Shown here piece after piece: positions 9,476-53,500 of a stretch of DNA of 64,000 nt (positions are counted from its first letter, which is position 1; each line of letters starts with the position of its first letter). Below the pieces are notes generated by a model that ran no database searches, had not been told where the DNA came from, and was given only the letters and a program-made list of their open reading frames with translations. Both the position numbers and the translations under genes were made by a program. This DNA comes from Trebouxia sp. TZW2008 (Eukaryota > Chlorophyta > Trebouxiophyceae > Trebouxiales > Trebouxiaceae): the NCBI GenBank assembly GCA_002118135.1, contig BDIU01000048.1:212318-276317 (forward strand), written 5' to 3'.

Positions 9476-12400
9476 TCAAGCTGGCAACATTTCGCAGTAC
9501 TCCCTGAGCTGCTGTATCTGCTGTCCCTTCCTCTGCATGGCCTCCAGCACTTGCGTGATAGTCCTTGACAAATCCTCATGTTGCATCTGCACCATACAAC
9601 ACCACTTTCAAGCCTTGCCACTCAATGCGCTTCTAAGACTGTACTCCCAGGGTGCATGGCCTCCAGCACTTGTGTGATTGACCTTGACAAGCCCTCATGC
9701 TGCGTCTGCACCATACAACACCATTTCACAGCCTTGCTAGTCAATGCATTTCTGAGACTTTGTTTCCATGGCGCCTTGCCCCCAGCACTTGCGTGAGGGA
9801 TTCTGACAGGTCCTTGTGCTCCATCATGCAGCATCACTCTTACCCCTTGCTAGTCAATGCTCTCTGTGTTCTGAGAGAATGCACCATTGATGTGAGAAGC
9901 CCGCCGCAAGGGGTGGGGGTTGGAAGCCGGGGGGGGGGGATTGAGGGGCACAGAAGATCCCTCACATGGGAAGCTGCAACATGAGCATCGTCCACACCAC
10001 TCTATGCGTTTCTGATGTTCTCATTTCAGCATAAGCCACCATGTGCAGCGCCAAACATCAAGCTGAATAATCACAATGGAGATACAAGGTAGAGAAGCCT
10101 ATCTATGCAGCTGTCGAGACAGTCATGTAGCTTGAGACGTTTGAAAGTGTTTGCTGCTGCTTGCTAGTCAATGTTGCAATGCATTGAGTGGCGCGTGGCA
10201 CCGTCAAGCTCTTCAGATCAGGCGCTCTTCTCAAGAACGCAACATGTTAAACACCCACATTGATGCTCTTAGGCTGCTGCTACTCACAGAGCCTGAAACG
10301 ATGGTAACGCTCAGTAGCGAAGACTTTTCTTTTCTTATGATACTGCAGTCCACTTAGCAATCGAAAGGATTTCACCTCTACATCTTCATCATCTGAGCAA
10401 GCCAGGGTCTGTACTGACTGCAGCAGGTCTGCATAGCGCAAGTCCAGGACAGCCAACTCATCCTCTAGGCTCAGCAGCACTGATGCCACTTGCTGCCTGC
10501 ATCACAATATGACTGTTGACCAAAATCTGGAAAAATCGGAAAATCCAGGACCCTCGAATCCAGGTATGGCATCCACACATGTCATGGATGTGATGCAGTT
10601 CCCTGTGCTCTGCGTAAAGTCGTCACCCAAAGCCTCAACAGCATCAAAGCCACCTGCTGCCTGCATCAGCACACAACCCTGTCAGAACAGCCAGTTAGCT
10701 GAGTGTGACTTCCTGGTGTGTATGTGGGTGCAGCACAGCACCTTGTGACAGAACCCACAGGCGTGAAGCATAGTGCAAGGCCAAAACTGCCAAGCCACCC
10801 TATGGGCTCAGCAACACCGGAGCTGCTTGCCACCTGCATATTAACACGCCACTTCGAGTTCAGCTACACATAATTTCATGAGCGGCAGCAAAATATGTAT
10901 TGACTGCAGCAGGACTGCCAAGTCAATCTCCAGCCTCAGCAGCATTGAAGGCACCTGCTGCCCGCATCGCAAACACTGGCATTGACAAAAACATTCAAAA
11001 CCTGTTTTCGTCCATGATCCTGCAATGCTTACAGCATAGGCCCGGGGGAAAGGGTCACATCCCTGTGGGCATAGCTGATGAACTCCATGTGGCTGGGTAC
11101 TTTGTCGACAGACGACGGACAGACGGAACTCACGTTCCTGGAGTTTATGCGCAGGAAGCATCCACACCAATATAGAGCTAGAACAGTCAAGCTGTTGTCA
11201 TTGCTGCTCACAGGCCGTTGTAGAAAACGCCCAATATTACCTGGTTTGCCAGGATTGCTGCTGCTTTCGGCTAAGTACAACGGCCTGACAGCCACTGTCA
11301 CCCCTCCTAGCGCCTTTGCTTTCTTGCCCCTGTTGCCTCCCTTCCAGTTGCCCTTCTCTAGGCAGCCGGCGGGGCAGGGCTGGGCCCAGCAGCCCTCTAG
11401 TCTGCCCTCTGCCCTGCCCTTTTGCCCCTGCCCCTGAGGGTTGAGCCTTGCAACGCTGAGCTGACCGGTGTATGCATTGTGGCTGGTGTCTGTCACAGTG
11501 GTGTGTGTGAGGCTCAGGGCCAGGAGGGGGTAGCAAGGGGACGGGCAGTCTGATGGGCAGTGCTAGATGCCTTGGGCTGCACACGCCTGCAGAAAGAAGA
11601 TATTTTGACATGACTGCTGTATGCACTGCAGCTGTTGTCTGTAACAGAGCTGTGTGCGAGGCTTGGGGCTGGGACGGGGTAGCAGGGGGCTGGGCATTCT
11701 GATGTGTACTACTAGATGCCTGGGACTGCACATGCCTGAAATGATTTGTCTTGCTTCAAGAGCATGTGAACGATTTATGTGCACACAATCTTTGTGCCAC
11801 GAAAACAGTGGAACACAGAAGCTTACCATCAGCTGGCAATGAAATCAGTTGCAATATCAGAGGGACTTGAGACCAGACATGCCAGTCTGCAGTCTATCAC
11901 GCATACAGCTGACAGTAAATTCCCAGTGCATGAGCCCGAATATGCATCGACATCCTGCCAAGCATAGTCATGCAGGCAAATGGCTAGGCAGCCACATGCT
12001 GGGCCCTTGCTCAAGGCCCTGCAAAGGCTCATGTATGCAGGCAGGCTTTTGTGGCAAAGGGTCGCCAGACGACAGACCCTTCGTGAGTGTTTGCTGCTTG
12101 TGACTGTTGCACAGCTTGGGCATGGTTACTTGCACTCTCTTGAGGGGGTTACTTGAGAGATAGCAGACCTGCTGTGAGTTTTGAAGGGGAGCTATGGCAA
12201 GCTTTGGGGCAGGCAGGAGGGTCCGAGGAAGGCTCTGGGGTGGGTTGCTGGCGGGTGAAAGAGTCCACCAGCGATTGATTCAACCCCAACACCCTCTCCA
12301 TGCTTTTCTCTGTGCGCCTGTGCGCAAAACAGACTTTTCATAGAGGCACTTGCACCAGGTTGAACATGTCACTTGTGCATACCGACATGGGCACATGCTG

Positions 12401-15400: not shown

Positions 15401-15869
15401 GTGATGATCTATGCAGCTGGTGCAACTTCCTGATTGCAAACTATGCATGCAAAGATGTGTAGATCTCAGCTGGCAGGTCACTATGCATGCAATATTTCTC
15501 TGCACAGTCTGAGCAGACAGACCTGCAGATTTCCAGCTCTTGCTGCAAAGACTTGTCAGCCTTGCCCTGCCGCTCAGCATCCTTGATCAGCTTTGCATTT
15601 TCATCAGCAGTTGCCTCCAAGGCATCACGCATTTCCTCAAGCATGCTGCGCATCTCTGTGACTTGCTGTGTCAGCTTGTCTCTCTGAGTCTCACTGTCTT
15701 GCAGCTCAGCTTTACGTGATTCCGTCTGTGCATGCAATTCGGCACGCAAGTCGCATCGCTCTTGCTGCAAGTTGGCATTATCGGAATACGCTGTGGACAG
15801 CTGGTCTTGCAGCTGTCTCAGAGCTAGTGCTGCTGCTTGCGAAACACTTTTGCTGCCATACATGGCCAT
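9476..15869 (-). CDS. Coiled-coil protein of six exons
   Basis: In transcript order the exons are 15523-15869, 15067-15301, 14572-14694, 13361-13488, 10376-10496 and 9476-9586. Every phase closes (2, 0, 0, 2, 0) and the product is 354 residues. Exon 1 opens MAMYGSKSV and is almost entirely heptad-like and rich in Q, E, L and K (LRQLQDQL, RAELHAQTE, MRSMLEEMRDAL). Exon 2 has an Ala/Gln-rich stretch, then QWELEQCQRQL. Exon 3 ends YEQRYRDLQ. Exon 4 has QEHAERVSAQ and LADLKLEA. Exon 5 has LEDELAVLDLRYADLLQ and an acidic DDEDVE. Exon 6 ends QQIQQLREYCEMLPA and TGA. It looks like a structural, cytoskeletal or centriolar rod, but I recognise no named family. Exons 3-6 each have decayed tandem copies nearby, which accounts for much of the long introns. 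ATG at 15863 is an alternative start. Confidence 0.75.
9590..9900 (-). pseudogene. Decayed tandem copies of the coiled-coil gene's last exon
   Basis: Two further copies of exon 6 lie upstream of it in transcript order, at about 9600-9705 and 9715-9830, with a period near 117-120 bp. They keep the GGTGCAG acceptor, the QHEGLS-like start and TQVLEAM. They lose the RKGQQIQQLREY end and the stop context. On the plus strand the shared words are CCAGCACTTG(C/T)GTGA and CACCATACAACACCA. Confidence 0.8.
10590..10980 (-). pseudogene. Decayed tandem copies of coiled-coil exon 5
   Basis: Pieces at about 10595-10690, 10795-10860 and 10905-10980 repeat the start of exon 5. On the minus strand they read as CAGGCAGCAGGTGGC or similar, followed by a TGCTG(T/C)TGAG(G)CT stretch. 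The 10905 copy still gives LEIDLAVLLQS in a different spacing. None keeps the acidic end or donor of the intact exon at 10376-10496. Confidence 0.7.
13535..13775 (-). pseudogene. Two decayed copies of coiled-coil exon 4
   Basis: Copies at about 13545-13620 and 13670-13775 lie 5' of the intact exon (13361-13488) in transcript order. Both keep EELRQEHAE(G/R)VSA or a variant. The nearer one breaks off after the QH region. The farther one has a frameshift in the middle, so that LADLKLKA appears in another frame. The period is about 130-150 bp. Confidence 0.75.
14060..14420 (-). pseudogene. Two partial copies of the end of coiled-coil exon 3
   Basis: The plus-strand word TCTCTGTAGCGCTGCTCA, which encodes EQRYRD on the minus strand, occurs at about 14099, 14380 and 14579. 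Only the last lies in the intact exon 14572-14694. Here the decayed copies are 3' of the intact exon in transcript order, unlike those of exons 4-6. A GGGGCTATAGGGGTAGACCC stretch at 14393 interrupts one copy. Confidence 0.65.
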
Positions 15870-16438
15870 AAGGCACCCCTAAAACAACCTAGCAAGCTTT
15901 GCCTCGACCATATGCAGTCTCTGAAGCAGCGCAGGCGTTACTGAGGACTGAGCGCGTGCAGGCTGTCTACGTATCAACCGCTGATTGCCACCATGACAGG
16001 TGACACAGGGCTGGTCCGCCGAACACGCGACGGGTGTCAGCGAAGTCGCGTGCCGACAAATTACCACTGACCTTAGCAAAGTTGGCCCGAGAAGATGCGG
16101 CTGGCCTTGTCGTGTTTTCAGCGCAATGATGTCAACATCTGCTCGGTCAAGTAAAAGTGTCAGTCAAGTGCCAGAGCATTTGACGTGCGAGGGCGGTGCA
16201 GCGATGAAGGGGCGATACTAGGTACAAAGCGCCCTTCCCAAGAGTTTGTGCCATTCACAGGCTTATTGAAGCGATTTACCTTGCGCGTGGCACAAGAGTT
16301 CAGCAGCTAGAAGGCTTCAGCAGTTATGATTCAGCTTCACGACAATGAGACATAAAAGTAAAGCTGCTCTTGCTGTGCTCTATGCTGGGTAGGCAGAACT
16401 GCTGACCATCATGATGATGGTGATCACAAGCCTTCAAT

Positions 16439-20073: not shown

Positions 20074-20220
20074 TTCGCCTGTAGTGCAAGCCCGCAGGGC
20101 ATAGCAGAAGCCTTCGGAGCGAGCCTATAAAAGCGCATAGAAACGGTTCATCTTCTGATGGCCGATCTGGCATAGCCGAGATCCTGATGCGCTGTGATCG
20201 CCAGCAAGCGGCATTCGACG
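20074..20220. promoter_or_regulatory. Short divergent promoter region
   Basis: Only 147 bp separate the start codons of the F-box gene (-) and the channel gene (+). Both promoters and both 5' UTRs must lie here or overlap the neighbouring gene. The stretch includes CCTATAAAAGC at about 20125, a good TATA-like sequence in the plus orientation. Coupled expression is inference. Confidence 0.55.
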
Positions 20221-23200
20221 ATGGCTGAACTTCCCCTTCTAAATGGTCAGGATGCAAGCGGTGCCACCAGCCTCGAAGCGCAGTATTTGTCCGAGGAGCA
20301 ACCCGACTTCGGTCAAGTCATCGCACACGATCCAGAAGGCGTTGTGGCGTATGTCGAGAAGAGAGGGGTCCAAGATCTTGGAACTTTCAAAGTTCAGGTG
20401 CCTGCAGCTGCACACTTCGATTGCGGCCGAATGCACATTGCAGCGTCTATCTTTGCTCAGCTGATCGTCTGCGTGTACAGCATAGGCTTTTTGGCTGATC
20501 TTGTGTCCGTACCGTCTCAATGTCCGCAGTCATAAGCTATCGTGACATTTTGACAGAGTTCTGGCTTACATGATGTAGCGTAGTCTGTCCGACAAACCCC
20601 CTCAAGCCAAACACAACTTTGATGTGCCTTCACAGGATGATACAGTACTGGAGCTGTTACAAGATGGAGCCATGTTCACGATTGGCAGTGACTCACAGTA
20701 CCCTGACTGGGAGAGAATGTGGAAAAACGAGCTTTCAAAAGATGACAGCCAAAAGCCGAAAGGTCTTTGTGCCTCTGGCATCCACGTCATGTGAGCTGTG
20801 TGCAAACAAATAGCAGCATCCAGTTGCTGTTGAGACGCATTGAAGTCTTCAAAGTAGCAGAATCAAAACCGCAAGTCAGACTGTCAGACAGTTCACGCTG
20901 AATTGGACATTGACTACTGCATCTAGTGTCTATGTGTAAGCTCATGCTACACTGCAACAAGCATGTTTCCTGGCTTACACAGCAACTGTGCCTGTGCGCC
21001 AATGGCTTTTAGCTTAGTATTATGCTGCTTGCTTGTGACTTTTGGCTTGTCACTTGCTATGCATGCAATCACTGCATTGGAAAATGCCTCCTAAACTGCA
21101 ATTGACAAAAGGAATGCTTGCAGGATGGACTGCCCACATTGAGGTGCAAGCTTCAGTGGTCACCCTGAGAAATGCTGCACACGCTGATGACTACGGCCTG
21201 CTCAACCCCATTTTGCACCGGTACATGAATGGAGCATGTTCCCTCAAGGTAAGACAGACAATCAGTCACAGCACCTAATGAGAGCACAGCATGTATGGAG
21301 GAAGCAGCCAACATTGCATCAGTATTGGCACAGCTACAGTAAATTATGCCCAGCTGTGGTGTCCCAGAGCTTTGCAGGCAGTGGCTTTGACACTTAGCTC
21401 TCCCCTCGCCCCAACATCCCCCACCTCCCTAAAACCAAACTTACAAGGAGCCCCAGCTACTCCTCAATTTCAGGTTGACAACACAAAGAGGTTTTTGTTT
21501 TTGTTCTATTGAATACTGAGGTGCAACTCTTTGCAGGTATGGGGCCTGCAAGCTTTGCAGGCAGTTGTCAACTTCAAGTGAAACACATAGGCAGGAACTT
21601 CCCTGTACTGCAATCTTGCCTGCTACCTGATTTGGCTTCCAATTGGTCTCAATAAGGCTTTAAGCCTTCATGTTGTTTTTGCAGGTATGGGGCCTGCGGA
21701 CTGTGCAGGCTGTTGTCAACTTTCAATGAAACACCTGGGCGCAGATCTGCCTATACTATGAGCTTGCCTGCTACCTGCTTTGGCTGTTGGGCTGCACGCA
21801 TTCACAATCATCTTTCAAGCCTTTCTGTTGTTTTGGCAGGTTTGGGGCCTGCAGGCGGTGCAGGCAGTTGTCAACTTCAAGTGGAATACCTGGCCCAAAA
21901 CCTATCTATACTATGAGCTTGCCTGCCACCTGGTTTGGACATTGGGCTTCCAAGCATCCACCATCATGTTTCAAGCCTTCCTGTCGTTTTTGCAGGTTTG
22001 GGGCCTGCAGGCTGTGCAGGCAGTCGTCAATTTCAAATGGGACACATGGGCGCGAACCTACTTGTATTATGAGCTGGCCTGCTACCTGGTTTGGCTGTTG
22101 GGCTTTCAAGTATTCACGATCATATTTCAGGTGTTCCTCTGCTCCCGTCATGCCTTCTTCTGCACGCTCCGTATGCCTGTAATGCTTCTGTTGTGAAAGG
22201 CAGCATGCTTACTGTTTTGTCAGAACTGCACACCTCAATTCATTCTGACATATTCAATACGTGTAAGTGTACTTCTGAGTTTGCCACTGTAGAATGTACT
22301 TTTGAAGTCCAATCAGACATTGGCACAGCCTGCTCTAGATATTGTCGACTGCGTTTCCGACGAGCACTGGCGTGCAGGATGAAGACAGTCATTGGAGTAT
22401 GTCACAGCTGCTGAAATCTGGCCCTGGCAGCGCCATTGAACCTCACACTCTGTCTGAACTTGGTCTGCACACGCCACTTTTTTGTTCACATCAGTCATAC
22501 AAGCAACAGTATCTGAATGTTGACACAGACCTTGCTCTGTTAATAGAGCCCTCACCTTGAGAATTTTACTTGATCTCTTAGTCAAGTGTTAGCACGCAGG
22601 ATGAAGACAGTCATGAGAGCCTGCCACAGCTGCTGAAGCACAATCTTGGCAGGGCTACAGTTGCTGCAGAGCTGCTGTGCCTGTGTGGCATGGCCCCCTT
22701 CTTGTACATTGAAGCAGGGACTTTTCTGGAGTACGGGTTTTATGGCTGGCAGTCAGTCTGGAACTTCATGGACGTTGTAGCCTATGTCAATCAGGCGAGT
22801 AACTTGGACATTCTGCGTTGTCTTTTGACTGGCATGGTCCTCTTCTTGTACATTGAAGCAGGGACTTTTCTGGTACATGGATTTCACAACTGGCAGTCAG
22901 CCTGAAACTTCATGGACGTTGTGGCCTATGTCAATCAGGCAAGCAGAACAGGCTTCTGATGATGTGCTTGCCTATGTCACTCAGGCATGCAAAATGGAAC
23001 TTCTGTGTTTGTCACCAATCTGGGACTTCATGGATGTTGCAGCATGCATTGATCAGGTTTGCTGAGCAGCATCTGCCCTGTGCTTCTGGCTGACAAGCAG
23101 GTCCAGCTCTTATCAGACAGGAATCAGTGATGCTGTGGATGATAACAGGTTGCGCACCATGTATGCGGTATACATTCAGGTGCAGACAACTTTGGCATGC

Positions 23201-26200
23201 CATGCTGGGATGTACTTGCTTTGTAACATATGTCCACAGGGCATACATGTCTATTCCATTACATATGTCCTTCAATATATCAGCATCATGTACTTGAGCC
23301 ATGAAGATCTGAATTTCAAGATGCACCTCATATTGATTGACAATGGTCATAGTATACGTACAAGTGACATGAAGATTGCTATGCTTTTGTGCAAGCAGCA
23401 TGTACTTCACTCCTGATGACACTGCTCTTATACGACAATCAGACATAACCTGTCCAGGCACTACCATTGTCATTCTTGGCCCCTAGCAGATAGCAGAAGA
23501 GTCACTCTTGATTGTTGTTTTTGCAGATTGTGATAGCAGTAATGCACCTGGGTCGGTATGCTGTTGGCGGTGAAACACTGTCTGTGTTGGTGTCCTTTCA
23601 GATCCTGCTACTTTGGATCAAGATACAATACTTTGCCAGGTGAGGCATGCAGGTTTTGTGCTTCACACATGACTGTTTGCGCCAAGTCAACACATGCTGC
23701 TGTGAGACGTCATTGAGTCAAACAGGTGCTCAAGTCTGGTGTGCAGATTTTGTGCTGGCCTTATCATAACACAAGTGTGACCATCCAGCATAGGTTATGT
23801 TGCTGGCTGCTTTTGCAAACATGTTGCATTATGCATGGCTTGAAATTCACCACCAGCAAAGTATGCATGTACATGCATGCATCTAAGCTCTTGCATGCTG
23901 TCTGTGGAAAGTCAAGTGCTGTAGATGCAGACTTTGTTTGTGATCCTCTGTGCAGAGTATTGCAGCCTACAAAGAACCCTTTCATGGACACTTTGAGGGC
24001 TGTCATTCAAGACGTCAAGTGGTTTCTGTTCCTGCTGATCCTGACAGTCTGGGGCTTCACATGTGCGTTTTACATCCTTTTCCGCAAAGATCAGCAGTAT
24101 GAGGTATGTGTCAGGCTGGCGACTGGCATTTGCTGCAGCTGACGTACCAAATCTCTTTGGAGTTAGAATCTTGCATGAAGTCCCTAAAGTTCTTGACTAG
24201 GCATGTGTCTTTGAAAGATTGGGATTGCATGTCTGTTGATATTCACCTTTTCAGTGCACTCTTTTCAGCTGCATCCATACGGCAGCGATACAGGTTGTCT
24301 GCGTCTTGCATATGCTCATGAACCAATTGTTGATTTGCTTCTGAGGCAAGCGAGTCATGAGAAAAAGCATGCCTTGCCATTGCACACACACTACCAGCAT
24401 TGGCAGTTGCTGCATGTATCGTGACCGGCCACGTCTGTGCCCAATGCACAGCTGACACGATGATATGTGTGCTCTGCAGCAATTCAGCAACATCCCACAC
24501 GCCTTTGTGACCCTCTTTTCCACAATGCTGGGGCACAGACCTGGATTTGCTCTACAATGGCCAACTCCATGACTGGCACAACACCAACATCATCAGATTT
24601 ATGCGTATACACTGATTGGTGGTTGCCCTTGAAAATCAATGCCTACAGCAATTAGATGCTTATATCTCCCATTTACTCACTTGAGATGATGTATTTGCCC
24701 TGCAGCAATTCAGCAACATCCTACACGCCTTTGTGACCCTATTTTCCATCATGCTGGGGGGTACAGACTTGGATCTATTCTACAACAGCCACAACCCCAT
24801 CATTGGCATCATCCTGCTGCTGCTCTTCGTCTTCACCATGTCCATGGTGCTCCTAAACTGCCTCATTGCCATCATGAGCGACGCCTGCTCCAGGGTGAGT
24901 TCTGACCATGTACAGAAAATGCAGAAAGCTTGTTTGCAAAATTGATTGCAAGAAAAGCTTGCAAATCTTTGCTTTGCATGCAAGTGCTAAACCAAGCTGA
25001 TTGACAGCTGTTCAGATATCAGAACAGCTGTGCTTCAACAGGATGTTTTGCATTTGTTGTTTGCATGCGTGCAGTTGCACACAGGCTTGTACATTGCCTC
25101 CTTGTGAACATAATGCTGTAAGTTGTGAGACTTGAGCTCAGGCTTGCAAGCATTTGATGTCCCTGCTATCGTTTTCTGTTGTTCTTGTGTTGCATCTGCC
25201 TGCAAGTGCCCAGTACAGTTTATCACCAATGAATTTATCACCAGTGAATGCTGCACAACCAAATGCACAATGCCCATCATGCCACAAGATGCCAAGTGAA
25301 TGTCATTGTGCAACCCTGTGCTAGGACACTCATGGTTTCACAGCACTGAGCAGCAATGTCAAGATGACAGTCGTGCTTCAGGTTGCTGAGAATGGGGACC
25401 TGAGGTTCACAGCCAGCAGAGCACAAATTATTGATGAGCTTGAAACAACTATTCCTGCCTGGCTGAGGCGCCGCAACCCCCACTGGTATCCCAAGTTTGT
25501 GCACATCCTGACGGTGGGTGTTCCCCCACTACAACATGGCATTTGCCTTGCTCCAGTTAATGCTCAATTACGGCAACTGCTTTGTGCAGTGCAGTCAATA
25601 TGCAGCAACTCTGCTGCTAGTTTCACCTGCACATATCATGGTGTAGGGTTATACTGGTTTTACACAAATATGCTGTTTGTGCTTCAACAGCACAGGAATG
25701 TGAAGCACGGCTGCAGCACTGCATACTGCCGACAACCATTCAGTCTGCCTTGTTTTGTATTGCCAATTACGCACACTATGGCAAGCACTACTTTGTTGTG
25801 CTTCTGTATAATTATAGCAAGGCACCCTGGTTCCAGGTGAGCATTAATGAGCATCCACATTAATGACTGCATCAATATGGCAGAGCTGCTCCAGCAATCA
25901 CAGCACGTCTGTGACACATTATTGCACTGTGTAGATGGTACCAATTGGCTCATTGGTGGTTTTTGCTCAAGATGGCACAGCAGCAAGCGCAGCCAAGCCT
26001 GATCCCATACAGCTCTACAAAACCACCATTACAGAGCTACAACAGCAGATCCAGGCTATGGCCAAGACTGACACATGAACGCATTGCGTAGGTGGTACCA
26101 AGCGGCTCACTGGCAGTCTTCACTCAAGATGATACAGCAGCAAGCGCTGCAGCTGCCAAACCAGATCCCATAGAGCATCTACAAGCCACCATTACAGAGC

Positions 26201-26412
26201 TACAACAGCAAATTCAGGCTATGGCCAAGACTCAGGAGGCCATGGCAAAGCTTCTTTTTGAGAAGCAGTCTGACACACAGGAGCAAAGAGACAATGTGCA
26301 GTCACAGTCTGATAGTGAAGCGAGCTCAGCAACAGCGCCCAGGAATGAAACTAATGAGGGCTCCAGCAAAAGTTGGTTGCCATTGATGCCATCTATTCTG
26401 AGAAGCTCATAG
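20221..26412 (+). CDS. TRP-like (ion-transport family) cation channel
   Basis: Exons are 20221-20397, 20636-20762, 21124-21248, 21996-22130, 22600-22794, 23527-23639, 23956-24103, 24706-24894, 25382-25513 and 26092-26412. All phases close and the product is 553 residues. Exons 4 and 5 give the first hydrophobic helices (YELACYLVWLLGFQVFTIIF; FLYIEAGTFL, then WNFMDVVAYV). Exon 6 gives MHLGRYA and LLLWIKIQYFAR, exon 7 the S5-like KWFLFLLILTVWGF. Exon 8 gives the pore (FSIMLGGTDLDLF) and the last helix ending LNCLIAIMSD. Exon 9 is a cytoplasmic RAQIIDELE block, and exon 10 a coiled coil (ELQQQIQAMAKTQEAMAKLL) with a polar tail. TRP-type channels pass Na+/Ca2+; ion choice cannot be read here. The start is the second of two close ATGs (the other at 20194). 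Intron 5 uses a GC donor (CAG/GCGAGT). Exons 4, 5, 8 and 10 have decayed tandem copies. Confidence 0.85.
21537..21995 (+). pseudogene. Three extra tandem copies of channel exon 4
   Basis: Copies begin at 21537, 21685 and 21840, then comes the intact exon at 21996; steps are 148, 155 and 156 bp. Each starts right after a TTTGCAG or TTGGCAG acceptor with GT(A/T)TGGGGCCTGC. Copies 1 and 2 carry TGA where the intact exon has TGG (VNFK-W), copy 1 also a TAG, and copy 2 a frameshift. Copy 3 is open and reads straight into the intact exon. All three have TTTCAAGCC or TTTAAGCC where the intact exon has the donor TTTCAG/GTG. Confidence 0.9.
22378..22470 (+). pseudogene. Truncated upstream copy of channel exon 5
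   Basis: It begins after a GTGCAG acceptor with GATGAAGACAGTCATTGGAG, as exon 5 does at 22600, and keeps the QLLK region. It then diverges before the IEAGTFL helix. The offset to the intact exon is 222 bp. Confidence 0.75.
22830..23060 (+). pseudogene. Downstream decayed copies of channel exon 5
   Basis: A copy at about 22830-22940 keeps LYIEAGTFL and NFMDVVAYVNQ, but TGA replaces TGG before NFMD. Two shorter scraps follow. One near 22960-22990 reads DVLAYVTQ; one near 23023-23058 has DFMDVAA. Each ends in a CAG/GC or CAG/GT-like site. Confidence 0.8.
24478..24605 (+). pseudogene. Decayed copy of the channel pore exon
   Basis: It starts CTGCAGCAATTCAGCAACATC exactly like exon 8 at 24701, and keeps HAFVTLFS. 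It loses bases in the GGG run at the selectivity loop, changing frame. A remnant of the next helix region (ACACCAACATCATCAG) follows. The offset is about 224 bp. Confidence 0.85.
25935..26075 (+). pseudogene. Decayed copy of the channel's last exon
   Basis: It begins after a TAG acceptor with ATGGTACCAATTGGCTC, parallel to GTGGTACCAAGCGGCTC at 26092; the offset is 157 bp. It keeps PIGSLVVFAQD and ELQQQIQAMAKT, then meets a TGA where the intact exon continues with QEAMAKLL. Confidence 0.85.
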
Positions 26413-28736: not shown

Positions 28737-29003
28737 CGTCAATTTTGTGTTGAGCGACAGTTCACCCCTGTGTCATGTAGAATAGCATGTATGTACATTA
28801 ATGTTTTTCCAAGAGTGTCAGAAGGTTTATGAGGCATTGCGCCATGGCACACTTGCAACACTGGCCTGTGTATTGTCAGCATACTGCGAGTGCCATTGCT
28901 ACTCTGCTGACGACTTTGTTTTTGTTGGAAACGCTGGACGTGAAAGTCTTTTGGCTTTTTGAGATGCAACGTAGCCTTGTGACGGTTGTGTAGATACTTA
29001 TGA

Positions 29004-29067
29004 ATATACTCATAGATTCTATGTCATATGTCATAGAATCTATGAGTATATGTCATAGAATCTATGG
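29004..29067. promoter_or_regulatory. Three phased 13-bp palindromes and a 20-bp perfect inverted repeat
   Basis: CATAGATTCTATG at 29011, CATAGAATCTATG at 29032 and again at 29054 are self-palindromes spaced 21 and 22 bp. The first two, with flanks, form a perfect 20-bp inverted repeat (29004-29023 with 29032-29051) around an 8-nt loop. The block lies between the aldo-keto reductase stop and the DDI1 start. It could be a dimeric regulator site or a cruciform; nothing shows which. Confidence 0.7.
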
Positions 29068-38860: not shown

Positions 38861-38868
38861 CAAGCATT

Positions 38869-38972
38869 TGCAGGTCATGCAGACAGCTGCACCTTGAAAG
38901 GCTTGGCTTTGCTGCTCTTGGCTGAGTATCAAAGCCAAGCCTTTCAAGTTGCAGCTGTCCGCATGACCTGCA
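38869..38972. ncRNA. Candidate 104-nt fold-back hairpin (miRNA or siRNA precursor-like)
   Basis: Arms 38869-38911 and 38930-38972 are 43 nt each and complementary except for two positions, around an 18-nt loop. The 5' arm starts TGCAGGTCATGCAGACAGCT. Both arm mismatches are isolated, as in plant and algal precursor stems. It lies in intergenic DNA 0.8 kb before HSP20, away from obvious genes. A recent inverted duplication or a small inverted-repeat element would look the same. The strand of any transcript cannot be told. Confidence 0.55.
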
Positions 38973-39560: not shown

Positions 39561-39735
39561 AAGCGACACTGTTGGCTCTGTTTTCCAAGCCTTCTTTGAA
39601 TTGTTTGCAAAGACTGTCATGTTTTACCGACAACTTTACGAGGTCGTCCCACTGATATCTGGTGGATTGCCGAGATCAACCCGGTGCGGCTGCCTCGGCA
39701 GACCCCACAGCAGCTTCGCCGCTGTCGCAAGAGCC

Positions 39736-42090: not shown

Positions 42091-45000
42091 TCAGCACTCG
42101 ATGGGCATGTTGTGAGCCAGCTCAGCGAGGTCATCCAGGCTCACCATGCTCCTTACGTCACTGGCGGTGTGAGTCTGTGAGTCGGTGTGTCTAAAAGCCC
42201 TGGAACAGTGGCTGCTGCCCCCTAGGGTTGAACTGTTGGCCATAGCCACACTCCTTACTCCTGTAGGTTGCCATCAAACAAACAGCTGAGTTTCCACCCA
42301 AACAAGTATACCTACAAATCGCTACTGCCAGCACGGCTCACTCTTGTGACATTGCGTACACAGATAGCAACTACTGCTTGCCTGGATGCATACAGCAGAC
42401 TGCTGAACAATCACAACATGTTTGTCAGCACGCTGTCATCTCTTGGACAGATCAATTCATGTCAGCTGACACAGCAGCTACAGCGTACAGGTCACAAAAC
42501 AGGTGTTCTTGTCTTTACATAAGGTAAGCTTCAATGCTTGCATAAACAAGGCAGACTAATGAAAGCATCTACCTCTCTTCCACTTGAAGCAGCAGTCTCG
42601 CAGCACCAGCTCAACGCTCAGACTCGGTCCTGAGCCGAGGCCCACAAGCTCATGCGAGTCCTGCCGTTGCTCGTCTTCAGCGCTGCTCACACTTGGCACC
42701 AGCCTCAGGCCGGCTGCTGCTGAGGTCTGTGATGGTTTGACGAAACAATTTTGCCTTGTTCCAGATTGCTCCCTGTATCAACATGCCAGTGACAAATAAA
42801 AGAACTTTCTTCAAAAGCAAATAAACAGATAAACAAAAGCTGCTGGTGTGAGTGCTGATTTGATGAGACATGTTTTGTGCTAGATCGCTCCCTTCGTCGG
42901 CAAGCCAACAGACCTTGGACAGATGTATTTGCAAGCCAAAAACAGACGCACAGCAGCTGTTGTGTGTCAGTGCTGGTTTGATGAAGCCATTTTGCCTGGT
43001 GCCAGACTGCTCCCTGTGTCAATGCTCCCAGTTACAATGGTGACTGAAGCATTTGTCTTCAAAAAAAGGACAATTAGAAGGTGCTCAAGACTGTGATGAT
43101 TTGATGAGGAAGTGTTACTTTGTGCCGTGCTGTTTCACAGTAGGGCTATCAAACATAAAGACATCCTTGGTGTCAGGACATGGCAACTGGGAAACGGTCA
43201 CTTGCAGTCTTGTTGCGGTGGCACCTCTGAGCAAGAAGATCTTCAAGTACTTGGTCTTGTCAATCATTGCAGTCAGTACAGAGAGCAGCCACTGTATGCC
43301 TGACTTGCCAGGGTGACTGCAACAAAGCAAGGGAGGGAAGGCGCATGTGTCAGCTGCCATACAGAAGAAGAAGAGGAAAAAGAAGAATGATACATCAGAT
43401 AAAAATGCGGCTTACTTGCCAGGGGCACTGCAGGTGAGCAAAGGAGGGAAGGCACATGGGCCAGCTGCCAAACAGAAAAAGAAGAAGAGGAGGAAAAAGA
43501 AGGAATGCAGAGTCATCGGGAAAATGCCTTACTTGCCAGGGGTACTACAATTGAGCAAGGGAGGGAAGGCACATGAGTCAGCAGCCGGGGAAGCCCCTGC
43601 AGGCAAGTCCATTGACCCCTCCCAGAGGCTGTGGGGTTCAAAACAGGGGTCAAACCAGGGGGATTCGGCTGCTGCCCCAAAGTCTAGCAAGGCGGTTCCT
43701 GCAGCACGGAAAACACTTGCTTGTCTGAAACTAAAAGGCGCGTGAGCCAGAGTCAACAGGCGCCTTTCCTGGGCTATCAACCTATTACATTGCTCTGACA
43801 AAGCACTGGCAAGATTGACACCCAATCAAGAATTCAGCAACAGTGCTGAGTTCATGTGGTGTCAACCTTGCCTTGCCTCCTTTTGCATGCCTATGTGATA
43901 CAGGGCTCAGCATGAAGTATCAGAACACACAAGTAAGAAGATCTTTTTGCAGCTTGAGAACACAACATTAGCTTCCTGTGATCCAAGCTGTCTGCAGGAA
44001 TATTTGTCCATGCAAAGTGCAAATGCAACAAATTTGACGCTTGTCTGCATCATGGCAGTGGATGGCATGAAACACACTGGCAATGAACACTTGAGGTTAC
44101 TAAATGTGGACACACAAGTGTTGTTCCTATTACTGTGTGGTACATTGTCTTGACTTGCCTTGCAAAGATGATTCACTCACCAGAGCGGCTTTCGTGCTCT
44201 GCGTCGCCCTCATCGTCACCCTGCTCTTCTTCTTGCTCTTCTTTCATGGCATCTTCTTCTTCCTCTTGCTGTTGCTGCTGCTGCTGCTGTGGCTGTGACT
44301 GTGCTGGTGGGCTGTCAGAGGAGCCAGGACCAAAGCCGCCTACAGCATCAGTGGAGAAAAGCTAAGCAGAGTCCGTGTCAATGCCCAATATGAACACACC
44401 AAGTGAAAATCCACAGTAAACATGGCTTGGCAGGCTCAAAACAGCAGCCAGCACAGCTAAACAAGCCCAGCACAGCAATCAGCACAGTTATCAACTTAGC
44501 ACAATGTGCTGAACACATGCTCAGCGTGCTCAGCACAGCATTGTGAACCACATAGCATCGTTGTTGCATAACATCATCGCCAACTGTACAGCTCCCAGGC
44601 ATGCTCATCAGTTTTGAAAATGCGCAACTCACAAAGTCCTCAAAGCATTGCATTGTGGTTGTTGCTGCCGAAGCAAGTCATGCAACACAGTTGGTGTTGC
44701 AAAGGCAGGTCATTGTGTATACTAATTGACAACCCAAAACTGCCAGTCAGAGAGAGAGAGAGAGATTACACGCTTTGGCCAGCCAACAAGTCTGATCGCG
44801 TGTGTCAAAACCTGATCAAATATTGAGACAATCAAGGCAATCGAGAGTAACTTGAACACCTGCATATGTTCCCTTTGACCAGAGGCTCACCTTGGACTTG
44901 GTGTGGCAGCAGGCCAAAATCCTGGCAGGCCACAGCAGGCTGGGCAGCATCAGATGGACCACTGGGATAAGCAGCAGTACTAGGATAAGCTGTGGTACTC

Positions 45001-46049
45001 GGGTAATCAGCAGTACTAGGGTAGGCAGCAGAGCCTACAGCAACAGCATACTTCAGTTAAAGTCTGGCATGAGAATGAACTGCTCTGACAGTTATTGCTG
45101 GGTGGTTGAGCAGCAACACTAGAGCAAGCAGCAGTGATGATGTCATAGTCAATACTAGGGTGCTGGTAAGCAGCAGATCCTGCAATGGTAGAAGTTTCCG
45201 CAAAAAATTGGACTATAGACTGCTGATTTAGATGGACCACTGGGATAAGTGGCACTACTAGGATGAGCAGCCGTTGTCGGCAGTACTAGGGTAAGCCGCA
45301 GACCCTGCAGTGACGGCAGAGTCACATGAATGACACCTACTGGCGACCATAGTTGCCAATGAAATCATTGTGGGCTGGCGTTCATACACTGAGGCATTGC
45401 TAGAAGTTGTGAAGAAGGACACCAGCAACAGTCTGTTGTGTTATCGCCGGCATGGTTGGATTGAAGCTATGAACTGTGATTCATGCAATGGCAATGATCA
45501 GCTATGAAGTGACCACAGCAGGAAGGTCCTCCTGCAATCTTGGCACCAGTCTGCTATCACATCAACAAGCTCAGCCAAGGCACGAGAAGCAGCAGATATA
45601 AGTGCAAAGCAGGGCAATGGTGAGTCACCTTGTTGTGGCACGTGTGGCTCTAGACCAGCTTGCATAGGGGCTGCAGAAGCTTCTACAGCAGCTGTTGAGG
45701 AACCCATGATGTCAGGTGCACTAGACTACAGGTCCGCATCAGCGTCATACAGCTGCATGCAAAGTCATGATGAGTCACCTTGTTGCAGCATTTGTGGCTC
45801 TAAGCCAGCTTGCATAGGGGCTGCAGAAGCTTCCACAGCAGCTCTTGAGGAGCCCATGATGTCAGGTGCACTAGACCATGGGTCCATGTCATACAGTGGC
45901 GGCCACTGTGGCAACTGCTGCTGCTGCTGCTGCTGCTGCTGTAGCTGCTGTTGCTGCTGCTGAGGCAGCAGTGCACTCAACACAGGACTACTCGAAATCT
46001 GCTGCTGCTGCTGCTGCTGCTGTTGCTGCTGCAGTTGCAGTTGCTGTTG

Positions 46050-46082
<33 letters not shown>

Positions 46083-47504
46083 TAGCTGCTGTTGCTGCTG
46101 CTGAGGCAGCAGTGCACTCAACACAGGATTACTCGAAATCTGCTGCTGCTGCTGCTGCTGCTGTTGCTGCTGCAGTTGCAGTTGCTGTTGCTGTTGCTGC
46201 TGCTGCTGCTGCTGCTGCAGAAGGAGGGCCTCCAGATCAGGCAGAGGCTGCTGCAAAACGCCCTGGGGCTGCTGCAAACTGGCCTGGGGCTGGTGCAGAA
46301 CGACCTGGGGCTGCTGCAAACCGCCCTGGGCTCTTGCACTTCTGGCAGCAGGGCTGGCGGGAATTGCCCTGACCTGAAGGCTCTGGAGGGGGCCTTGAGG
46401 GGAGCCCCTGGGCCGTTTCTGAGCTGCAGCAAGCACAGTAGTGTTGTGTGACGACAGTACTCAAGAGCAGCATGATTTGTAGCCACAGGAAAGCCTGTAA
46501 AAGTCACAGGTGCAGGGGTCATTGCAAACAGACGTTGACTGCACATGCATACCTTACACTCATGGCATGCAGTCATAGCATGCAGTTATGGCATGACGGC
46601 AGGAACTGACTTGTTTATATACACAGTGCATGTGAAGCAATGCGTTTTGTGTAGGTGTGTGTACCCGCACACTGTCTGCCTGCATACCATGAGTACAAGC
46701 AAACAGTGTGCGTTTGTGTTATCAGTGTGAACCAGTGCCGTGAGAACATGCAAGCACTGTGTGTGTGTTCTTGGAACCTTCCTGAAACTCATGATGACAA
46801 GATGCATTCAAGTTATCTAGGATTTCATTTAGCTCATCAAGTCTGAAATACACCAGGATTGATTTGCTTACCTGGTTCAGATTCAGGCTCTGCAGTGCCA
46901 TGCAGCATCCATTGCCTCTGACCCTCCACAGATCTGGGGTTAGGGTTCTGCCCCCAAGGCAAATTGCTCTGCAATTGGAAAGGATTTGCAGGCACATTTG
47001 CCCAATCCTGAAGACCCCCTTGACTGCTTTGCTGGGTAGGGTCTGAGAAAGCCAGCTGTTGCTCTGCTTGAGGGTTGGCAAATATGGTACGCTGGAGAGC
47101 TTGCCCTAAAGGGTTTCTCATGGGGGGTCCCCGCTCTGGGCTTGGGGTGGGGCTGGGGGTGGGTCGGGCTTTAGGGGGGGTCCGGGGGGGTCCCATCAAG
47201 CCAGGCTGGGGACTAAATCGATCCCTGGCAGGTACAGATGGCATTCCCGCCAAGGCCTGCAGGTCATGCTGTGCACGCTGAGCCTGCTGCACCAGCTGAG
47301 TTTGAATTCCTGGGATCGCATTCCTAGGCATTGACCCCAGGCTCTGACTACGGCCTCTTGTGGCGCCTCTACTAGCCCTAGGGCTGCTGGTAACTTCCCT
47401 TGAGGGCATTCTCAAAAGCCCTGACTGAGACCGCATTTGAGGACCGCTCATTGAGCTTGTACTGCTGGACGTGTTGCGCCCTTGACTAAAGGTGAACTCT
47501 GGCA

Positions 47505-47536
<32 letters not shown>

Positions 47537-50500
47537 AGCTGTGACTGCAACATGTCTGATTGGTTGGCTGTCCAAGGGGCCGGTACAGGTCTGCCCTGTT
47601 GAGGATTGCCCTGCCCTCTTGGGTTTTGAAATTGCAAAGGAGCAGCCTGCTGTTGATTGCCTTGCAACAGATCCTCTGCTTGCAGCTGCAGCATCGGCAT
47701 TTGCTGACCAGTCATGCCGTGGTGTTGTCGCATCCCAGAGGGCATCAAAGCCTGTTCCAACATGGCCTGCCCTGTGGCCCTCGCTTCTACAGGCCGTCCA
47801 GACAGAATCCCTTGGAATGGCATCTCCGCCTGTTCATGCTGTGCATGCTGAGTTTCAAACAGACTGCCCCCAGGGCGTTGCTGGATGCCCTGCCCCAGAG
47901 CTTTACTGCGGCTGCTGGGGCCTGTCTGTCTGAGCGACTGTGCAAGCAGGCCTGAGGGCTGATCCTCAAGATTGCCCCTGTCCAGCCTGCCTGTCATTGA
48001 CGCCAGCCGGTCTTCGAGTGAAGCCTGATACATCAATGATGGTGAATGCTCTTGGCTGGGCTGCCTTGAGTATGGCCCTTGCATCGGGTCAAAACACTCA
48101 AAGTCACCAAAAAAGGGCACAGGATCCTGCAGATCAAGCAAAAGAAGAGTGTCAACCATCAGCGGTTGATTGCAGCACTCATTCAATCACAGGCAGCTTG
48201 GCTGGCAGCATCCTGACAAGGTAACGCAGCGCAACTACGCACAGCACCGCACAGCACCATGCAGCGCATCAGGTGGCTCAAAATGGTATGGGGACAGCAC
48301 AATGCTGTACCACGTAGTGTGTAGAAGGTACAAAGCTGAGCACAGCGCAGCACAGCACAGCACTGCACTGCACTTTGAACTGCATTTGCGGGCTCAGCGA
48401 GCTGTCACCACAGTACAAGTCTGTGCCGAGCATCCAAGATGCAGCACAGTATGGCATAGCAAAGCACAGCACAGCACAGCACCTTGAAATGCATCAGCTG
48501 GCTCAAAAACATGTCGCTGTCCTGCTCCACCACAGACCAGCCAGGGTGGTTGTTTTCCCGCCAGTTTGCAAACGCCTGAGCAGCCAACTCACTGATCCTG
48601 GTTGCTTGGCGGCTGTCTGCTTGTCCCGCCAAAACCAGCTGAGAGGCGCCTGGACCTGCTAGGGGCTCCAACAGCACTGCATTGCAAGTCTGTTGTTCAA
48701 ATTGCCTTGACACTGTGTACAAGTTGCACTTCTGAGAGCAGCAAATTTGAACTGCAGCTGAGAGGCGCCTGGACCTGCTAGGGGCTCCAACAGCACTGCA
48801 TTGCAAGTCTGTTGTTCAAATTGCCTTGACACTGTGTACAAGTTGTACTTCTGAGAGCAGCAAATTTGAACTGCAGCTGAGAGGCGCCTGGACCTGCTAG
48901 GGGCTTCAATAGCACTGCAAAACATTATGACATCAGCCTGATCATTTCCCGCCAGTTTGCAAACGCCTCAGCAGCCAACTCGCTGGTCCTGGTTGCTTGC
49001 CGGCTGTCTGCCTGTCCCGCCAAAACCAGCTGAGAGGCCCCAGGACCTGCTAGGGGCTCTAGTAGCACTGCATAACAAAATTGTGGTCAAGCTGCCATTG
49101 ACTTTGGCTCAATGTACCCATTTCAAATAGTCTGCCGCAAGCACTGCAACACTCTAAGCCAACTGTCAGCTCAACTTGAGCGCACAGTATCGTTCAAAAA
49201 TGTATCAGAATCAGGTCTTGCACATGAACCACAGCTGTGCATGCAGCATTGACGCACAGCTATGCATGCAGCATAAAAGCACAGCTATGCGTGCAGCAAA
49301 GAAGCACAGCTATGCATGCAGCATGGATCAAACACAGGGCTAGGCTGAATGCACACCTTGCCTTTAGTGCAGCCATCTCCCTACAACCACAATCCCACAA
49401 ATGCGCTCCTAACCTATCAAGAGGACCTAAGCAAAGTAAGATACCAATGCATGAAAACATCTAACCCATTTCCAGCATCAACAACAGTCTACACGAAACA
49501 CAGGAAATGCAGAGACGCACTGGCGGGGCTGCTGAGGTCAATCTGGGCTTAAGAACAGTGATACAGCAGTCCCAAACTGGATTGAGCACTCAAAAGTGGA
49601 ATCAAGCTGAACCAAGGCTTTTGCAGGAATGCACAGCTCAGACTGCAGCATACACAAAACACCATACATTAATGCAGAAACAAATGACCGCATGTAGAGG
49701 CTTACCAGCAGGACTGTTGAAGTCAATCTGAGCTTGAGAACAGTGGTACAGCAAGCCCTCAGCAGATCGCACGTCAGGCTTCCAGCTCCGTATCCTATCA
49801 TCAGCCTCCAAGACCTTCTGGGAATGCTCCACGGCCGCTTCAGGAATCAAGGCTCTTCTGATTTGCTTGGGGCAGTTGGACCAGTCCCTTAGGGCGTCTA
49901 CCAACTGCTTAAAGTGCTCCACTGCAAAAGGCAAATTGGTATCAGTCAGTACACCTGTGTTGTCTAGTTGCTGACAGCAGTTGCTGACTACAGTTGTGCA
50001 CTGCTGCTTCAATAACCAGGGCTCTTCTATTCTGCTTGGGGCATTTGGACCAGTTCCTTAAGGCCTCTGTCAACTGCTTGAAACGCTCAACCGCAAAATG
50101 GAAAGACTGCTGTTGACCACTCGAATTGTGTTGCTTGCTGACTTTTGCTGTTGCTGTTGCTGCTGAACGTTGCTATGTTGTCTAAATTGCAGATGCAGTG
50201 GCATGTTTTAGACAAATAGCTGTGTTATCAATGCAGCTGTAGATGCTAAAGACAGTTGATGGCTCCAGTACATACCTAGCTGGGCCTGCTGAGCCTGTTT
50301 GGCATGCGTCGTGAGTGAGCGAGCGAGTGAGTGAGTGAGTGAGTGAGTGAGTGAGTGAGTGAGTGAGTGAGTGAGTGAGTGAGTGAGGCAGGGAAAATGG
50401 GAATGAATGTATGTGGATGCTGTGGGAGGGTTTGTCATGGACATAGCGCTTGCACTGCTCGAAAAAAAGAATTCCATCCAGTTTGCTAGCAAGATGCATG

Positions 50501-53500
50501 TGAAGCATGAAAGCAAGCTGTAAGCAGGCAGGCTGCAAATGAACAAATGACCTTTGCCGTTTTGTTTACGGGCTTGCTATCAGCTGGCTGGCGAAACATA
50601 TGCAATGCAAGAAGGTGCATTGGCAAGGTTCAGCCAAAAGTGCAAATGAGCTGACATTTGTTGTGCTGATTTGTCATTGAGCCAATGCACAGTAGCAGCT
50701 CACCAGTTCTGATGGTGTTGAGGGCTTCAGACAGCACCTGGCACAGCTGAAGAGGCTTTGCACACACTCACAGATGCTGCAGGACAATCTGCAGGACATG
50801 TCATTGCAGTTTGACTACGCAGCAGTCTGCCAGTCGTGTTGGAGCAGGGCATGGCATGTTTACTAAGCTGCAGCCTACCAGTCGTGATAGTGTTGGGGGC
50901 TTCAGACGGCACCGCAGCACGGCTGTTGAGGCTGCGCACACACTTACGGACGTCCTTCAGATTTTGCTTGGTTTTGCCTCCTAGGCCTTCCAGCTTGTCT
51001 ACTGGGTCTGTGAGGCAGGGAATGTCAGGCTTTACACCACCTTTTGACCGCATTGTGGTCACCTGCAGCAAAAAACCAACTCGAGTTCAGACAAATTCGA
51101 GTTGAATTTGACTGGGATGGCATCTGCAGCATGATCAGGCCTTTCAGCTTGTCTGCTGGGTCTGCGAGGCAGGGAACGCCAGGCGTTATACCGCCTTTTG
51201 ACCGCATTGTTGTCACCTGCAGCATTCACAACATGACCATTCAATGTCTGCCGTCAGCAACGCACGGAGAAAACACACCAGGGGAACAAGTTTCAATCTC
51301 AGCAATGTTCAGAACAGTGGGTACTTGGTGGACCAGAGACAGGTGCAAGCATTTGCAACCAAGACAAAGTATGCCAGAGTGATGCAATCTTCTTGACAAG
51401 GCATGCAGCAAACAATCAAAGCAGCTTCTTGAGGCAGAGCTCACAGTAGTAGTCATGGCCGTCTGACACGAGCTGTGACACGCACACAACAGATTGCAAG
51501 GCATGCAAATGAAGCCAAGCCCAGAGCCAACACAGCTCACAGAGAAACTCTTTGACACGAGCCTTATGTATCTGTGAATAAACACTCCAACGCTATAGCA
51601 GCAAGGTTTTGCCAGGTTATGGGCATGCATGCAAGTCCGCATTCAGAGATAACAAAGCTTACAGTAAAGCCTTCTGACACAAGCTGAGCCAGCTCTTCTT
51701 CAGTGTCCAGATTCAGGGCTCTGACCAGCATCTTGTACTTGACGTCCTTCCCCATCTGGGTCTCTGAATTCTCTGTACAAGACAGCGACAAGGTCATTGC
51801 ACATTCAACTAAATAGGACTCTCTGCACAAGTAAGAAAAAGTTGCCACTGCTCAACTTAGCACAAAAGCTCCATGCATGTCAAGGTTGACAATTAATTGA
51901 CATGCTGCAGCAGAAAACTTCAAACGACAGTTCACCTTGGACTACAAAGTCTGCCGGGGACACCATGTCATGCTGAGGGACTCTGCTGTCTTTGAGCGTC
52001 CTGACAATACTCAGTCTTGGGAGGCACATGCAGTTTTGGCATTGCATGCTCTACACACCTCCAAAATAGGCACATCACATATACGAACATTGATATGCAA
52101 CCTTTGACACCAAGCAAACAGTGCATATCTTGGCATCAGCATGAGGTTGAACTGGCGCTTTACCTTGAACCACAAAGTCTGCCAGGGACACCATGCCATG
52201 CTGAGGCACTGCTCTCACCCTCAGCTCAGCTGTGTGCTGCGTCATGTGACCTCCTTCCAGCAGAGGCCTCTCCTGCAGTGATCAGGAGGGATCAGTCAGT
52301 GCAAGAGTCAATTGATCAATCAGTATCCAGCAGACCACTTGAGCCCACATCAACACAAAAGTCAGCGCTGTGTGCAATGGTGTAAGTGGCACTGAAAGTG
52401 TAACGTAAGACGCTGATGCCACAGGCAATGTACGGCAATGTATGTACATTGCCTGTGATACATTACAGCTTGACAAAACATGTTGTCTGTTATGTTATTT
52501 GGACAAAAAGGTGACTACAACTCTTCCTAAGAGATTAATGCTTGTCGACACTTGCTGGCAAGCCTTTTTCTGCTGCAGCAGCAGCACAAAGAACATCGTG
52601 AAAGGCTTCTCAAGTCTCAGTGTCACCCACATTGCTGGCGTCCCAGGTTGTCGTATAGCGCCTCAGCAAATGCCACCCCAGGCACACTCCAGCAGAGTTG
52701 TGCCATCACATAAGACATACCTCATCACTCACATCGCAAAATGCAGCACTGTTACAGCTCAGGCTAGAGATTGACATGCATGCAGCATCACCAGTAACAG
52801 CAACTGTAACATTCACATTCTGTGCAAAATCATGCAGCAGATGCATGAGCTTAGGTGTGAGCTCAAACTGATCTGCAGTCCACAAAGTACAACGCATACC
52901 TCAGCAGACTTGGCAGCCTTCTTTTTGCCTGGTTCTGAGGGGTGAGGCTTGCTGCATGCCAACACCTCACACTTGTCCCTGATTTCCTCATCCATGGGAA
53001 CTCCCTCATGCCCTTGCTGTAGCCAGCTGTCATGGATGGCCCCATTCAACAAGGAGAACTGCAGCAGACAAGCACCTAACAGTAAGGACTGTACACACTG
53101 TATATAGTGTGCAGCCTGCAGTGCGCAATGTTTGTGGGCAGCGCTGTGTCTGAGATTCAAGGCATAATTTCTGTGCTTTGGCACCTGATCAAAGTGTCAT
53201 GCTTGAACCATGACACAGCATGTTACCATGATGGGCTGTCATGAATGGCGCCATTCGACAAGGAACCTGCAGCAGGCAAGTTTGACTTGAATGTTGAGCA
53301 ACTTTGCTGCAGCCAGCTTTGAAGGACGCCAGCATAGGCAAGCACGCAAAGCTGAGTAATCTGCAAACACAATGACTGTGCTGCAGTGCCAAAAGCCTCT
53401 TCAACAGGCAAGCATACAGCTGAGGGAGCTGGAGGTTAGATGGCTCTATTTCAGTGTAGCGGTCACACTGCAGTCAAGGAACCAAAGCAGACAAGCATGT

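Follow-up and report, generated by a model that had tools for sequence, protein, structure and literature searches.

The final 64 kb of contig BDIU01000048.1 of the green lichen alga Trebouxia sp. TZW2008 (64,000 nucleotides, hereafter the window) carries genes, among them one for a TRP/polycystin-like channel, whose introns hold decayed copies of pieces of the adjoining exons. These copies are probably the residue of small tandem duplications, with a modal length of about 150 bp, that fell across exon edges and lengthened introns with decayed pieces of the genes' own exons, the extra copies being spliced out. A sign of such an origin is a two-sided rule, in which dead incomplete copies that carry a splice acceptor mostly lie upstream of the complete exon and those that carry a splice donor mostly lie downstream of it.

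The genome comprises 68.5 Mb in 527 contigs, and the main sample consisted of the window and 20 further samples of 10 kb (264 kb in total). Exon models over the 264 kb were obtained with a purpose-written two-strand gene-finder, trained without supervision from the reading frames of the window as seed, which converged on 420 exons (median 124 bp) and 413 introns (median 313 bp) with a predicted splice consensus of TGCAG/G at acceptors and AG/GT at donors (the slash marking the exon edge); predicted exons shorter than 30 bp were counted as intron. Its errors include small spurious exons within dead copies, a late start of the last channel exon and the fusion of adjoining genes. The best protein relatives of the examined genes are Trebouxia proteins, a scan of viral contigs having given no relative, and they confirm the live exons of the channel gene and of an ascorbate peroxidase gene in sample L026, as well as most of those of a large gene in the window. 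Copies were collected as local direct pairs (offset 30–600 bp, E ≤ 1e-4), of which 37 were removed as low complexity. An earlier complexity filter, which scored distinct 4-mers over the entire alignment, loses alignments of at least about 180 bp and with them the most intact tandem units; it underlies the comparison of direct, inverted and distant pairs, the tests of intronic homology, the codon-position mismatches, the intron-creation geometry and the lengths over which homology extends into introns. A later, windowed filter underlies the counts of pairs and arrays, the polarity, the reading-frame counts and the full-length arrays, and stops and frameshifts in dead copies were recounted with it.

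With the later filter, 242 local direct pairs were found in 115 arrays (4.4 per 10 kb). Forty-nine of the pairs lie in the window and others in 19 of the 20 samples; arrays also stand in the window at 575-815, 892-1267, 5178-5509 and 63702-63809, and the phenomenon is therefore not bounded by positions 9476-53275, to which a first-pass annotation of this DNA had assigned it. Under the earlier filter, in 26 stretches of 10 kb, 175 local direct pairs compare with 15 local inverted pairs and 14 distant ones (more than 1 kb apart, within 10 kb), and Markov shuffles of these stretches yielded 0 local pairs; the copies are thus not a product of chance and have the direct, adjacent geometry of tandem duplication. 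Their spacing has a mode at 140–160 bp (23 of 115 arrays), with 77 arrays at 100–199 bp and a smaller bump at 220–239 bp (10 arrays). The offsets in the window, mostly 85–175 and 205–255 bp, retain the two clusters first described (117–160 and 205–225 bp) with wider limits.

A decayed, non-exonic copy was detected near 72 of the 378 predicted exons and inside 65 of the 413 introns. In the window, 19 exons with at least one non-exonic copy were listed, and since the exon at 21840 is itself dead by comparison with its orthologue, 18 remain, which bears out the first estimate of at least a dozen within 9476-53275. The absence of copies from UBC27, DDI1, AKR and HSP20 likewise held: these genes, and an F-box gene with them, have 0 pairs under the earlier filter and no local pair in the initial scan of the window. 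Full-length tandem units, aligned over at least 0.9 of the offset, make up 42 of the 115 arrays. Identity reaches 95% or more in only 3 of the 115 arrays, one of them a match of just 27 bases, and the suggestion that the process is active was therefore not borne out; recent activity is weakly supported, the count being subject to the possible collapse of young arrays in the assembly.

A regular geometry emerges when the pairs are classed by which splice site of the predicted exon falls within the aligned segment. A copy includes 20 bp or more of exon in 189 pairs; in 111 of these the partner is dead, being placed in intron or intergenic DNA by the gene-finder, and in 78 both copies were called exonic. 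For polarity, a partner less than 10% exonic was taken as dead and each distinct exon was counted once. The acceptor-type copy then lies upstream for 38 of 41 exons (two downstream only, one on both sides) and the donor-type copy downstream for 28 of 30 (two upstream); in the window alone, under the earlier filter, 10 of 10 acceptor-type and 8 of 8 donor-type cases are on the expected side. Tandem duplication of an intron end together with an exon start is bound to place the incomplete copy upstream, and that of an exon end together with an intron start to place it downstream, whereas random insertion of nearby fragments would place copies on either side, half of them being expected on each, with which the polarity disagrees. 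Of the rows with a dead partner, 53 are of the acceptor type and 42 of the donor type, so that the first description of each copy as having its acceptor applies to about half of the dead copies and fails for such cases as 22830-22943, a donor-type copy without an acceptor.

A mechanism of the following form would account for this geometry. Small tandem duplications would arise along the Trebouxia genome, and where the duplicated segment comprises an acceptor and the 5' part of an exon, the resulting array would consist of successive fragments followed by the complete exon. As the final copy alone would extend to the exon's own donor, splicing to the last acceptor would restore the old mRNA, and the earlier copies would become intron. 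Where the segment comprises the 3' part of an exon and its donor, the first copy would stay live and the later ones would become intron. Since both kinds of array would leave the protein unchanged, they could become fixed, decay and lengthen the intron, while unequal exchange or slippage would add further units, and duplications lying within an exon would survive only in frame. Neutral fixation and the DNA lesion behind the duplications are presumed parts of this scheme.

The reading frame and the decay of the copies agree with it. Offsets are divisible by 3 in 24 of 25 pairs lying entirely in exons, and in only 16 of 52 acceptor-type and 16 of 42 donor-type dead pairs, as if free of the frame; this contrast indicates selection on duplications that are kept in the mRNA, with no visible effect on those that would be lost by splicing. 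In the exon part, a stop or a frameshift occurs in 34 of the 52 dead pairs of the acceptor type and in 13 of the 42 of the donor type (18 and 6, respectively, when only stops are counted), and introns with a dead copy are longer than others (473 vs 282 bp). For dead pairs of the acceptor type, mismatches at the three codon positions run at 0.161, 0.115 and 0.244, approximately as expected of a neutral copy paired with a constrained one, perhaps with some past constraint on the dead copy. The relatives' proteins of three genes (P0001 for the channel; P0040 and P0041 for the large gene; P0042 and P0043 for the peroxidase) hold the duplicated exons once. Together with the polarity and the longer introns, the frame rule and these single exons uphold the original proposal of local tandem duplication that lengthens introns, and the dead copies are probably not spliced in, to judge by missing splice sites, stops and the relatives' proteins. 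A supposed greater length of acceptor-type than of donor-type segments, as a need for the branch site would produce, was rejected (median offsets 190 vs 184, p = 0.61, earlier filter).

The channel gene, whose best relative is a protein of Trebouxia sp. C0010 (P0001, 83% identity over the whole query), offers a compact example, as the exon VWGLQ... is present four times at 21528-22130 on the plus strand. The copies in this gene are as follows.

21990..22130 (+): live channel exon, the fourth copy, matched by tblastn with P0001 at 83% identity; donor TCAG/GTGTTC
21528-21638, 21679-21792, 21837-21974 (+): three dead upstream copies, each with an acceptor
22375..22434 (+): dead upstream acceptor-type copy of exon 22600-22794; tblastn, 70% to P0001 residues 188-207
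22830..22943 (+): dead donor-type copy lying downstream of exon 22600-22794 and matching its 3' part; 86.8% to 22686-22799, offset 144
24459..24578 (+): dead upstream acceptor-type copy of exon 24706-24894, frameshifted; 82% over 124 columns, offset 226
25912..26069 (+): upstream copy, a complete 157-bp tandem unit beside the last channel exon; 165 aligned for an offset of 157, tblastn

In the fourfold array, only 21990-22130 extends as far as the end of the orthologous exon, with its donor. The first two dead copies hold stops and the third is open in the live frame; the gene-finder predicted short exons in all three, though P0001 has the exon once. The copy at 22830-22943 also contains a stop, and the last channel exon starts near 26092 according to P0001, where the gene-finder put 26153. 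At the sensitivity of the search used, no extra exon copies were found in two channel paralogues (contigs 339 and 315).

The ascorbate peroxidase gene in L026, which is 92% identical to that of Trebouxia C0006, holds the exon DVKKHDDPDLVVLATDEC six times at spacings of 124, 132, 124, 122 and 137 bp. In these units an intron part aligns together with the exon part, and only the last unit extends across the remainder of the exon, up to the donor at the end of the orthologous exon. The other five, all dead, share 74–85% identity with the live unit and several are open, so that the statement that exactly one copy per array keeps phase proved too strong, both here and for the third channel copy. 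Two other Trebouxia species hold the exon once (P0042 and P0043). The Trebouxia C0010 peroxidase "variant 2" (P0043) has 36 extra residues at one exon junction relative to P0042 and P0063 (C0006), and these are perhaps a retained piece of intron.

Whether duplication is aimed at exons was approached by comparison with random placement. Pairs touching an exon number 191 of 242, against 137.8 expected (range 121–156 in 200 rotations), and intergenic pairs 13, against 38.5. One-splice-site arrays account for 81 of 115, against 30% by random placement; set beside the 16 intron-only arrays (0.30 vs 0.36 expected), this is an approximately six-fold excess, and full-length arrays number 24 and 10 in the same two classes. 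The raw excess was rejected as plain exon targeting, because a dead copy that faces a conserved exon stays alignable longer than two neutral copies do, and part of the excess thus reflects the longer detectability or survival of exon-bearing copies; the excess over intergenic DNA envisaged at the outset is real in the counts, with survival supplying a share of it. When only the non-coding parts were matched, 23 clusters touched an exon and 30 did not (43% vs 28% expected, p = 0.02), and a coarser matching at the level of arrays gave 29 vs 22. Detectability, as simulated, explains just 1.07- and 1.18-fold, natural repeats of the template DNA contributing a background of about 0.2. Duplication therefore occurs in all compartments, survival explains part of the exon excess and not all of it, and there may be a true preference for exons.

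That incomplete explanation raises another reading, in which exon-intron junctions are hot spots for tandem duplication of roughly nucleosome length (~150 bp), splicing architecture or exon chromatin directs the sites, and exon fragments ratchet up the length of introns. It draws on the residual excess at p = 0.02, the 24 vs 10 full-length arrays, the merely 1.1- to 1.2-fold effect of detectability and a mode of 140–160 bp that is compatible with it, and it is regarded as a tentative proposal that is unlikely on present evidence. If true, splicing architecture or exon chromatin would direct DNA duplication.

Several observations weigh against plain tandem duplication as the general explanation. 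All splice sites used are predictions of the same purpose-written gene-finder, and 5 of 71 exons violate or mix the polarity rule. Both-exonic pairs follow the side rule weakly (for the acceptor type, 18 lie on the expected side, 10 on the other and 1 on both; for the donor type, 8, 6 and 1), and 41 pairs consist of an entire predicted exon with an exonic partner; some of the both-exonic pairs are over-calls of the gene-finder, and others may be true double exons, so that the first suggestion of occasional new exons may be right. As regards the duplicated intron that the scheme predicts, residual homology (P < 0.05) was found in 33 of 72 tested pairs and was not significant in the other 39, homology often extends only about 12 bp into the intron (median for 44 pairs of the acceptor type), a dissimilar stretch separates the copies in many pairs, and the ratio of aligned length to offset has a median of 0.54 even at 88% identity or more.

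The shortness of intronic homology would be natural if staggered breaks had been repaired by end joining, such that a short piece is copied and joined with filler DNA (piece, filler, piece) in place of a clean tandem duplication, and the median ratio and the 39 pairs speak for it. However, the 42 full-length arrays are tandem units throughout, and among the three arrays of at least 95% identity, both of those with long alignments are clean tandem units. Duplicated segments with both intron and exon sequence are seen in the L026 array and at 25912-26232. Moreover, clean duplications simulated at 0.2–0.25 substitutions per site and submitted to the identical search gave, at the two lower indel settings, a median intronic alignment of 7–36 bp and a ratio of 0.5–0.7; since old plain duplications look alike, age can explain the short homology. 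Filler repair is accordingly judged improbable as the general origin, while filler DNA at the junction is possible for some pairs. A separate filler process, or two classes of repeats, was considered and rejected: its support, a ratio of 0.45, arose because the earlier filter had removed long alignments, the windowed filter having lifted full-length arrays to the present number, and exon and non-exon pairs did not differ.

It might also be held that the arrays, or a share of them at least, are functional tandem exons, mutually exclusive or repeated, of which both copies are used. The 78 both-exonic pairs, the 41 whole-exon pairs, 10 arrays inside exons, the open reading of some dead copies (21837-21974 and several in L026) and the commoner mismatches at third positions are what such exons would show, and the 78 pairs in particular lower confidence in tandem duplication with spliced-out copies. 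Against functional exons stand the 111 pairs with an intronic or intergenic partner, the stops and frameshifts of the dead pairs, the single copy in relatives' proteins of three genes and the fact that the gene-finder called four of the five extra peroxidase copies exons though relatives have one; use of both copies, even for a share of the arrays, appears quite unlikely.

Introner-like or other dispersed elements inserted in introns, although introners are reported in about 5% of the species searched in one survey (PMC9860276), are a highly improbable source: similar elements dispersed over many genes were not found, the 14 distant and 15 inverted pairs being few beside the 175 local direct ones, and the DNA of the channel array, the sole array searched genome-wide, had a single match in the 68.5 Mb. 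An origin in assembly error or in collapsed haplotypes, for which the division into 527 contigs leaves some room, is scarcely credible, as the copies mostly differ by 10–30% plus indels, the live copy fits the relatives' proteins best, and errors would not sort by splice-site type.

Further copies in the window lie on the minus strand, in a predicted coiled-coil gene and in the large gene (42091-54453).

9534..9860 (-): 119-bp tandem units at the predicted last coiled-coil exon (9476-9586)
11611..11738 (-): dead upstream acceptor-type copy of predicted coiled-coil exon 11241-11586; offset 149, with 79.7% across 128 columns
43300..43586 (-): tandem units of about 111–117 bp at a predicted exon edge of the gene called CBP60-like
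48239..48283 and 48636..49102 (-): copies of exon 48483-48676; the former is a dead donor-type fragment on the downstream side, the latter comprises upstream copies, a young 119-bp array (2.4 units, 98% identical) within an older duplication
49507..49568 and 49999..50104 (-): dead copies of exon 49706-49921; the former is of the donor type, lies downstream and holds a stop, the latter is of the acceptor type and lies upstream (tblastn to P0040/P0041, offset 169)
50695..50774 and 51137..51224 (-): copies of exon 50879-51062; the former is dead, of the donor type and downstream (offset 175), the latter of the acceptor type and upstream (offset 154, 89.8% over 88 bp, tblastn 70% to P0040)
51931..51982 (-): dead downstream donor-type copy of exon 52164-52272; 88%, offset 228
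53235..53280 (-): dead upstream acceptor-type copy of exon 52900-53058; 87%, offset 209

The copy at 51137-51224 was predicted as an exon by the gene-finder, and the exon is single in P0040 and P0041. Relatives of the large gene were found only in Trebouxia C0004 and C0005, one of them being named "PSII 6.1 kDa protein", apparently in error, and the gene called CBP60-like gave no Pfam match in the parts searched. At 45915-46218, a long CTG/CAG triplet tract (poly-Gln in the frame of the large gene) contains a 99% identical 141-bp duplication. Elsewhere in the window, imperfect palindromes occur at 38869-38972 (104 bp) and 28991-29064 (74 bp), 87–89% self-complementary, and a reverse transcriptase fragment (Pfam RVT_1, E 1.9e-13) lies at 59152-59676 (+), near the contig end. 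Donors of the GC type are frequent, with 67 of the 382 predicted introns starting in this way (for instance at window 22794/22795 and L026 395/396), as do 2 of 15 examined in the channel and peroxidase genes.

Introns have reportedly been created by the duplication of AGGT exonic segments, as is said to follow from work by Rogers (1989), Gao and Lynch (2009) and Hellsten (2011) cited in PMC4974935 and PMC3443670. The Trebouxia arrays resemble that process in that an internal tandem duplication would have its extra copy spliced away, with no change to the protein, and differ from it in that most pairs lengthen a pre-existing intron; only 2 candidate pairs with the geometry of AGGT intron gain were found in the 413 predicted introns under the earlier filter. 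Tandem genomic duplication is described as an accepted route of intron gain in the accessible text of PMC3443670, and the name itself is in print for a related process, which qualifies the earlier remark that no standard name was known for so pervasive a form in algae. In the potato RdRp gene, as far as the available part of the report goes, such a duplication crosses an intron-exon boundary (Ma, Lan and Niu 2016, PMC4974935); there, as in Trebouxia, the splice signals come from the parental copy. The potato event is of the acceptor type, happened once and gave a new intron in one gene via a cryptic donor, whereas in Trebouxia an old intron is lengthened, 72 of 378 predicted exons are involved, both acceptor- and donor-type segments occur, and one array has six units.

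Within-gene exon matches in introns and over exon boundaries are likewise catalogued by Exonize, whose report, in the portion accessible, describes degenerate and partial exon copies in 20 genomes and full-exon duplication in about 4–7% of vertebrate genes, with partial and intronic events more numerous (PMC12343006). A candidate DNA mechanism for local direct duplication is the fill-in of break ends, which gives small tandem duplications in mouse cells, with natural cases indicated in humans and plants (Schimmel 2021, PMC8355091); the sections available discuss short insertions of less than 100 bp, while the Trebouxia mode is 140–160 bp. Published Trebouxia genomes measure 63–74 Mb (PMC11523091) and 69 Mb (PMC12712428) according to the parts of these papers at hand, in whose main text, to the same extent, the word "tandem" does not occur. 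Among the titles and opening lines of abstracts searched, no genome was reported with about one-fifth of its exons carrying such copies in acceptor and donor classes of opposite polarity. The kind of event is therefore known, and its present density and the two-sided rule were not seen in the literature searched.

For annotation, the arrays are a warning that gene-finders can add dead copies to genes as small exons, as the one used here did. Intron lengthening, the origin of new introns and exon repeats are usually inferred from few cases, and here one genome displays the process at about one-fifth of its predicted exons, in arrays of varied age and in two mirror-image classes. Such abundance could make the rate, the size spectrum and the splicing outcome of exon-edge duplications directly measurable.

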